This document shows positions 26,201-29,200 of a stretch of 64,000 nucleotides of DNA, in pieces. Position 1 is the stretch's first letter, and each line of letters begins with the position of its first letter. Below the pieces are notes generated by a model. The model saw nothing but the letters and a program-made list of their open reading frames with translations, did not search any database and had not been told where the DNA came from. The stretch is from assembly GCF_019059575.1 (NCBI RefSeq), contig NW_024881538.1, positions 930,001 through 994,000 of the forward strand, given 5' to 3'. Made by a program: the position numbers and the translations under genes. This stretch comes from Amphibalanus amphitrite (taxonomy: Eukaryota; Arthropoda; Thecostraca; Balanomorpha; Balanidae).

Positions 26201-29200
26201 TGAGCAGGGGAAGGAGGGACACAACGGTCGGGCAGGAACGCCCGTGTCTGGCTGGTGGGCTGAAGCAGAGCGAAATTAGGTGAGCAGCGCAGGGCCAGTG
26301 ACGTGGTGAGTATTATATAGCAGAGGTGCTCGGCGTCTTTACACAATAGGTGAATGTGGCTCCAAATAGCGAGATAACTCAGAGGAATCGTTATTGCTGA
26401 GGGACATGCTGATGTTCAATGCCCATATCGCCATTTGGGTAAAGACACAAAGGTCATCTGGGTACTCAAAACACAGCTCAACATATTTCCCAAGCGAAAC
26501 CCAAGACGGCTCTACATTCTGCCTTGAGCGCAACACAACCCAAATGAAGCTATTTACAATGCACTTGTGCGCCAGCATCAGCAGCGCATAGCACGCTACA
26601 TACACGTAAACAAGACGGCCGACTCTATGACCTGTAAACTCAGGTGCGGCCATTCCTGTTAGGGTGAGGGTTAAGGGATGTGCAGTCGGGTCACTCCACA
26701 GCACAACAGGGCGCCGGGTGAGACCGGTCTCTCGGTCACCCGGACAGACTCTACGCAGGACAGACGGAGCTACGCCCCCGCGTGGCGGGGCGGGGTCGGA
26801 CGGCCACACAGACACAGACAGAAGCGAGCCACTCGTGCGGGAGCCCCGCTGGCCGCTGCCGCTACCTGCCCAGGAAATCGTCCTTGTCCAGACTACTGGC
26901 GTCCCAGTCCCAGAGGTCGATGCGGGCCCGCAGGCCGTCGGGCCGCATCAGAGAGACCTACGAGCGGGAGCATGGTTAAATGGGAAAACACCGAGCGCGG
27001 ATAATAGGAAAGATGCGGAGAAGCGCCCGTCAGGATCAAGCACCTGCTAAATAAGACAGGGTGACCATGATCTACGACCACCTACTAGATGGCTGACTGT
27101 ACAATTTAAGCCTCCCCCAGTCAGTCAAACAGCGGGACACTGGGCAAGAGAGGGGCACCACAGAGTCGACCGGGCTCTGCCTGCTTTGATCGTACGAGCG
27201 CATCTGTCTACCCGTCACTGTAAGGAAGGTTGGATTTGAGGGGTTGGCACTTTATTCACGTGTGTTGCCAGAGTCTGTGGAGATGGGAGGGGAGGGGGGG
27301 GCACACCTCTGCGGTTTTTCCTTTTAATCATTCTGTGCCGTGCCAGACAAGTGTACAAACACACAGCGGCGACCACAGGTGGCTTGTCTGACAGTGGCCT
27401 GATCCAATCCGATCCCCGTACCCATGGCTAAGGCATGGGGAACGACTGACACATATGCCTAAAGAAAACAGTCACAGGAAAGGAGGAATATGAAAGTGTC
27501 CCGGAAACAGCCACAAAATAAAACAAATATCAAACTAAGCGTGCAAATAAAACCGAATGATGGGTCCGGTAACACCATTCTGACGTTCCCCGCCCATTTT
27601 CAATCGTAAGCCCATCAGAGTTTGGTAGCCCACACCGCACCACACGTCACTCTCACGCTCCACCGCATCACACTACACGTGGAAGCATATACTCGTACTC
27701 AGGTCACAAAAAAAACGAAAGAAAGAGCAAAACCTCAATCTCTTCTCATGAAAACCAAACGACAAAATACTGATGAAAAAGTAACCTGGCTTCGAAACTG
27801 TAAAACACTTCACTTCGAGTACAAACCACATCAGAACATCAAAGAACGTTCTCCTCCAAATAAACAGGAATAAACACCGAAAACCTAGAGAAAAACCGAA
27901 ACCCATTATGTCAAAGTAATGATACACTCCAATAAAACAGACCCGATTAGAAGCAGCCAACACCTCGTGCGCTATAATTCTGTCGTGACAGTCAAATCGA
28001 GCCCCCGTACTATCCAGACAGCAAAACCGAGCTCCCGCAATCAGTCCTTGCGCGGAGCAGCCGCCATGCCGGTCTGAACAGGCCTAACGTTACCTTCCCA
28101 GGTCATCATCGTCTCCGGGCCCCATGTCGTAATCGTTGACATCCACGATCAAACGCATTCCGAATACCTCTTCCAGAGGACTCTGTGTCCGGCACATACA
28201 CACCGGCGTCAGATGGATGGGCACGGACAGAGAGAAGGGCACGGGAACGGACAGGAGGAAGGCAATGGCACGGACAGGAAGAAAGGCACGGTCTTGGGAG
28301 ACACGGGCTAGGGCACGGACACGGGCCAGATTGACACGGCATCGGGCGCAAGATAAAGACTCGGACACGGACACGAAGTTGGACACTGACACAGACACGG
28401 AGGTAGACACGACCTCGAACATGTACGGCCTCGGACACAAAACCGCAAAGACGAAACATTGGGCTCGGGCATCAATGGTTTTCTTATACGATTGGGAGGA
28501 TTCTCCCGCCTGCATTTTACCAGCACCTAAAAGTCCCCGTACTTGTTAGCTCCGTTAAATCTTCGTCCAGGTAACAATTGGTTATCTCCCGCGCGTGTTA
28601 GCAGCTGGGAGAGCATTCAGCATTGTGCCGAGTGACCCATCCACCTCTGTGGTCCACCAGTCCACTGACCGCCCAAACTCCCCAGCCTACGACGCTTGGC
28701 ATGAGTGTGCGACTATGTACACTATACAGCAACCGGTCATCTCTGGTGAGCGAGTTAGCGTTTTTACAGCAGAGAAAACCTCCACCGACAGGCGGCGGCG
28801 CCCCTCTGCGACCGCCCCCATCCACAGCGCGGCCCCCAGAGGTGACGGGAGGGAGGAGCGAGTTAGTATCAGCCAGGCGCAGTTCAGCAGCAGCAGCTAG
28901 CGGCGACAGCGGGCGGCTGGGTACCGTCTCACCTGCCCAGCTTGTCGTCCTTGTTTCCCGGGTCATCGGCATCAAACAACTCGAGCCAGAGGCGCGGCCC
29001 GACTGCCTCCAGCAGAGGGAACTGGGCGCACCGGGCCGCGGTCGGTTAGCTGGGCTCTCGGCGGCCGACGGGACCGCGGGAACGGCGCACACACGGCACA
29101 CACGGCACGCCGAGACATTACAGAGACGGCGGCCAAGCAGCATTTGATTGGCTCGGTTGGGCGCACAAACAGTATGCAAAACGCAAAAAGGGCTTTAACA

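Follow-up and report, generated by a model that had tools for sequence, protein, structure and literature searches.

Three candidate mutually exclusive exons for calcium loop 3 of the first C2 domain in a barnacle Esyt2 gene

In several genes, part of a C2 domain is encoded by alternative exons, and the closest described system is found in Esyt2 itself. According to the available excerpts of Craxton 2010 (PMC2823689), arthropod Esyt2 genes carry mutually exclusive exons that change the first C2 domain, and the legend of additional file 43 of that paper describes the introns as phase 0 and phase +2. The same excerpts name Syt1, Syt34 and Esyt2 jointly as repeated inventions of C2-altering alternative exons, and see value in comparing C2 forms altered in this way. 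In the accessible part of Ivanov and Pervouchine 2018 (PMC6071210), D. melanogaster Esyt2 appears in a list of clusters of at least three mutually exclusive exons, with the number given as three. Esyt is set aside in the accessible portion of PMC8164606, and PMC4465641 makes no mention of it. Taken together, the 2010 and 2018 reports indicate that the array is already known and not new, and the suggestion of an earlier sequence-only reading of this DNA, that such exons might not have been described for E-Syts, has to be given up in light of these excerpts. We found no functional test of the arthropod Esyt2 exon swap in the accessible parts of the open-licence literature searched.

Outside arthropod Esyt2, C. 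elegans snt-1 (Syt1 C2B) is similar in that mutually exclusive exons rewrite part of a C2 domain. However, it is another gene and another C2 domain, and we do not propose that the exons are orthologous. In mouse, exon 10 of ESyt1 and ESyt2 encodes part of C2A, and the excerpted account in PMC4922586 reports that this exon contains the four aspartates whose replacement served to eliminate calcium binding and that deletion of the exon leads to a frameshift. Judging from its position in the domain, mouse exon 10 would be the counterpart of the barnacle alternative exon considered here, with the difference that it is a single exon for which that excerpt mentions no alternatives.

Here, we analyzed a 64,000-nucleotide stretch of the barnacle Amphibalanus amphitrite genome (contig NW_024881538.1, positions 930,001 to 994,000 of the forward strand), hereafter the window. 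We consider, with a probability of roughly 0.88, that the window gene represents, in a barnacle, the mutually exclusive exon array already known from arthropod Esyt2. It resembles the arrays described in the excerpts of PMC2823689 in belonging to the same gene, affecting the first C2 domain and having phase 0/+2 borders, and it resembles the Drosophila Esyt2 entry in the accessible part of PMC6071210 in having three exons. The difference lies in one of the barnacle exons, exon b, which is without a clear insect counterpart among the 79 distinct versions that we compared. The alignment of arthropod exons in PMC2823689 entered this comparison by its legend alone.

The gene model comprises 13 exon positions on the minus strand, from 40300 down to 21581. 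Coding exon 1 (40052..40300) contains the start codon and the N-terminal membrane region, and is followed by exon 2 (39611..39652), which was aligned to the listed barnacle protein P0004. The SMP domain is encoded by exon 3 (33202..33342), exon 4 (32730..32873) and exon 5 (31035..31180), with its end and a linker in exon 6 (30571..30691). The constitutive exon 5' of the array, exon 7 (30026..30196), encodes the early part of C2A (GVLRVRL...WNYVCE) and ends in phase 0 at the donor gtaaga, while the constitutive exon 3' of the array, exon 9 (25432..25480), encodes the remainder of C2A in 16 residues, and exon 10 (25050..25139) the C2A end and a linker. C2B starts in exon 11 (24609..24704), continues through exon 12 (24150..24311) and ends in exon 13 (21581..21733). 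Later coding exons on the same strand were located as tblastn blocks with approximate borders, at 20436-20293, 9949-9821, 8904-8800, 6033-5938 and 2287-2192.

The model matched the Pfam families SMP_LBD (E 1.1e-46) and C2 (E 1.9e-32), and in PDB it matched two solved structures of E-Syt2, 4p42 (E 2.8e-106) and 4npk (E 6.7e-55), to whose C2A-C2B sequences the model aligns directly. When C2A only was used as the query against PDB, ferlins led, followed by E-Syt2 (E 5.7e-17); ferlin whole-protein scores are sums over several C2 domains, and the match of the longer model to E-Syt2 removes the doubt raised by this ranking. The best protein match was P0004, a 781-aa A. amphitrite protein named extended synaptotagmin-2-like (1085 matches from 7995 scored candidates, best 120 listed), and the model containing exon c corresponds to its first 552 residues with 100% identity. 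These domain, structure and protein matches bear out the assignment to E-Syt C2A made from the sequence, and the Pfam and PDB matches show the alternative exons to be part of the first C2 domain (C2A) of Esyt2. P0004 could be aligned to the window exon by exon as far as 2192. Its last 73 residues gave no convincing tblastn block within the window and are presumably encoded outside it.

The three alternative exons are minus-strand exons located between positions 30026 and 25480, namely exon a (28933..29021; 89 nt, 29 residues), exon b (28094..28182; 89 nt, 29 residues) and exon c (26866..26957; 92 nt, 30 residues). Each is preceded by AG and followed by GT, and each is entered in phase 0 and left in phase 2; coordinates, lengths, splice dinucleotides, phases and peptides were exactly those claimed by the sequence-only reading. 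Exon 7, ending at 30026, and exon 9, starting at 25480, join in frame to each of a, b and c. With a single a, b or c, the gene model gives an open frame of 551, 551 or 552 residues, respectively, and the C2 match of the resulting C2A reaches 66.9, 64.0 and 69.3 bits (Pfam cut-off 22). With none, two or three alternative exons, the frame shifts and a stop is reached after 339 to 378 residues, as had been predicted for the inclusion of two or none.

This frame logic favours the presence of exactly one alternative exon per putative transcript. We propose that tandem duplication of a C2A loop-3 exon would have produced three phase-matched exons that can replace one another, that a single one of them would be spliced into each mRNA with all three in use, and that splicing of none, two or three would cause a frameshift and an early stop of translation. 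The frame rule discards wrong products but makes no choice among the exons.

We then evaluated the exons against an exon profile built from 75 non-barnacle versions (the 79 distinct versions minus the four barnacle ones), the majority being from named insects and some from contigs. Searched against 2684 stop-to-stop segments from both strands of the whole window, the profile returned as its top three exactly exon a (E = 4.7e-6), exon c (7.4e-4) and exon b (0.073). The next score was E = 3.4, and no fourth exon copy was found in the window by this profile. Moreover, in each of the three pairwise comparisons among the a, b and c peptides, the observed score was reached by 0 of 500 shuffles. The profile score of exon b alone is non-significant, and this exon was accepted because of its position, frame, splice sites and C2 fit; with its E value and a long branch in the tree described below, it is the least supported of the three.

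The same segment could be excised from all 120 listed proteins (the best 120 of 1085), yielding 79 distinct versions of 27-32 residues. We chose 12 species groups with several listed forms, representing 32 of the 120 listed proteins. The 150-residue flanks on both sides were identical to those of the first form in 11 groups, and in the twelfth, Anticarsia, identity was confined to the upstream flank. Ischnura elegans, Anopheles arabiensis and Ochlerotatus camptorhynchus each had at least three versions and the other nine groups at least two, these counts being lower bounds because only the best 120 proteins were listed. A search for the same swap in other arthropods had been proposed as a check, and the listed insect proteins do contain it, with up to three versions per species. 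Homology, reading frame and the published arthropod arrays lend support to the proposed loop and to its mutually exclusive use.

To place the barnacle exons, we used a tree of 27 versions, consisting of 24 picked from the 79 distinct ones plus window exons a, b and c, over 29 columns, in which 17 of 24 inner branches are open. Exon a grouped (97/92) with the a-like segment carried by the partial A. amphitrite record P0007, exon c fell near the c forms of Pollicipes and of P0005, another A. amphitrite Esyt2, without strong support, and exon b formed a long unplaced branch (length 2.74). By score, exons a and c are closer to certain insect forms, a comparison to be read with the 29 columns and the open inner branches of this tree in mind. 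A putative one-to-one orthology is claimed solely for exon a with the a-like segment of P0007.

The barnacle proteins allow the use of the three exons to be considered further. P0004, the protein of the window gene, shows the exon c form only and is one of two members of its cluster. The protein database is clustered at 90% identity and was compared here through its representatives (2 members in the P0004 cluster, 7 in that of P0005), so the absence of isoforms from it means little. Exons a and b may be absent from the annotation of the window gene. P0005 is 71% identical to P0004 over the aligned length and has a c-like exon. P0007, which has an a-like segment, shows 92% identity with P0005 where the two align. 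Of the 29 residues of exon a, 23 are identical in that segment, a share similar to that of exons 9-10 with P0005 (37/47 identical), lower than that of exon 7 (51/57) and higher than that of exon c (18/30). The 92% identity suggests that P0007 belongs to the P0005 gene, in which case the array would be present in both barnacle copies, at least for a and c. The Pollicipes protein (P0006) is 78% identical to P0005 vs 69% to P0004.

Could the second copy mean that the array in the window is falling out of use? In such a scenario, only c, and perhaps a, would still be used in the window gene, b and possibly a would be decaying, and the sister gene copy would carry the array. The exon c form of P0004 is compatible with this, as are the existence of P0005 and the profile score and branch length of exon b, for which no orthologue was seen among the matched proteins. 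However, exons a and b contain no stop and no frameshift and have intact AG/GT borders, exon a is as similar to its P0007 counterpart as constitutive exons 9-10 are to theirs, and exon b keeps both the acidic motif of loop 3 and its C2 fit (64.0 bits). We regard decay as unlikely. Far less probable still is that a, b and c are separate duplicated genes or an assembly artefact and not alternative exons of one transcript. The other Esyt2 copy shows that duplicated genes occur in this barnacle, but the flanking constitutive exons are found once each in the window with no second copy among a, b and c, and the three exons differ strongly from one another, so they are not assembly copies.

We also looked for relatives of exon b beyond the listed proteins. 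No b-like exon was present in the four proteins (25 candidates; all barnacle; representatives) matching residues 300-385 of the b form, nor in four of the nine candidates from a short C2A query (P0124, P0125, P0126 and P0127). Among the latter, P0125 is a distant relative. P0124, P0126 and P0127 come from ENA contigs and contain pieces 93-100% identical to exon 7 and exon 10, with coding sequence that runs on into intron-like sequence; they are probably barnacle DNA from environmental samples.

A wider proposal is that there are two barnacle Esyt2 genes, each with an array, together with a barnacle-specific, strongly acidic loop-3 exon b (a 12-residue stretch) that belongs to the window copy and has no insect counterpart. 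We put this forward as a tentative and somewhat doubtful possibility. If true, splicing and gene duplication would together provide about six types of C2A calcium loop in one animal.

If the window gene is indeed a barnacle version of the arthropod array, one may ask what would keep its exons mutually exclusive. Ivanov and Pervouchine, in the accessible part of PMC6071210, hypothesise competing RNA pairing for such clusters generally, and in the barnacle gene exclusion might likewise be enforced by competing long-range pairing between one docking site and several selectors, as in Dscam. We examined RNA pairing in one genome, with masking applied to runs of five or more G or C. Pairing of a site at 26859, just 3' of exon c, with each of the other three introns was at least as favourable as -31.6 kcal/mol. 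It was stronger than in 20 of 20 shuffles once G/C runs had been masked and, at 26860, stronger than in 12 of 12 unmasked shuffles. However, the site is GC-rich and adjoins the exon, an effect that whole-intron shuffling leaves uncontrolled. Among 21 inverted-repeat pairs, three place an arm at 29800-29820, in the intron 5' of exon a, yet one partner of this arm lies inside exon b. The partners of the 29800-29820 arm are 28109-28125 (the one inside exon b), 28812-28825 and 25785-25799. A strong candidate docking window in the first intron (12 shuffles per test, three tests) owed its signal to a poly-G run. It was lost on masking, the best masked window being equalled or exceeded by 8 of 20 shuffles (two tests), and we rejected it as an artefact. 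Overall, pairing compared with shuffles in one genome revealed no convincing docking-site structure in the introns of the array, and we consider enforcement by competing RNA pairing rather unlikely here.

Turning to what the exon swap might do, a D-x-D motif in loop 3, with a further acidic residue a short distance ahead of LG, was found in exons a, b and c and in all 79 distinct versions obtained from the 120 proteins listed, a result that holds with Asn left out of the pattern. Since this acidic motif is kept in all three forms, all of them would be expected to bind calcium. The exons carry charges of -4 (a), -8 (b) and -3 (c), and the three forms differ in loop length (c being the longest), charge and loop-tip residues. 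These differences point to a likely graded shift in calcium or lipid affinity and not to an on/off switch, and differing calcium affinity or membrane binding among the isoforms is plausible. The sequence-only reading had proposed that the isoforms would differ in calcium affinity or membrane insertion and would tune ER-plasma membrane tethering. Under the proposed mechanism, the resulting E-Syt2 forms would have in common the membrane anchor, the SMP lipid-transfer domain and the other C2 domains, would differ in loop 3 of C2A, and may thereby bind calcium or membranes differently. As such, the array offers natural variants for asking how a swap of C2A loop 3 affects calcium sensing and ER-plasma membrane tethering, and it adds a barnacle to the arthropods in which this kind of splicing array is known, one in which the listed protein of the gene includes a single exon of the three.

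A tRNA scan of the window with bacterial settings found none. A 1.1-kb interspersed repeat occurs at 17794-18872 and 31416-32514 (81% identical), and a second repeat of about 0.3 kb at 23741-24058 and 36811-37123 (88% identical). Long simple repeats, with a poly Arg-Glu reading on the minus strand, occur at approximately 54000-54170, 57780-58030 and 61330-61630.
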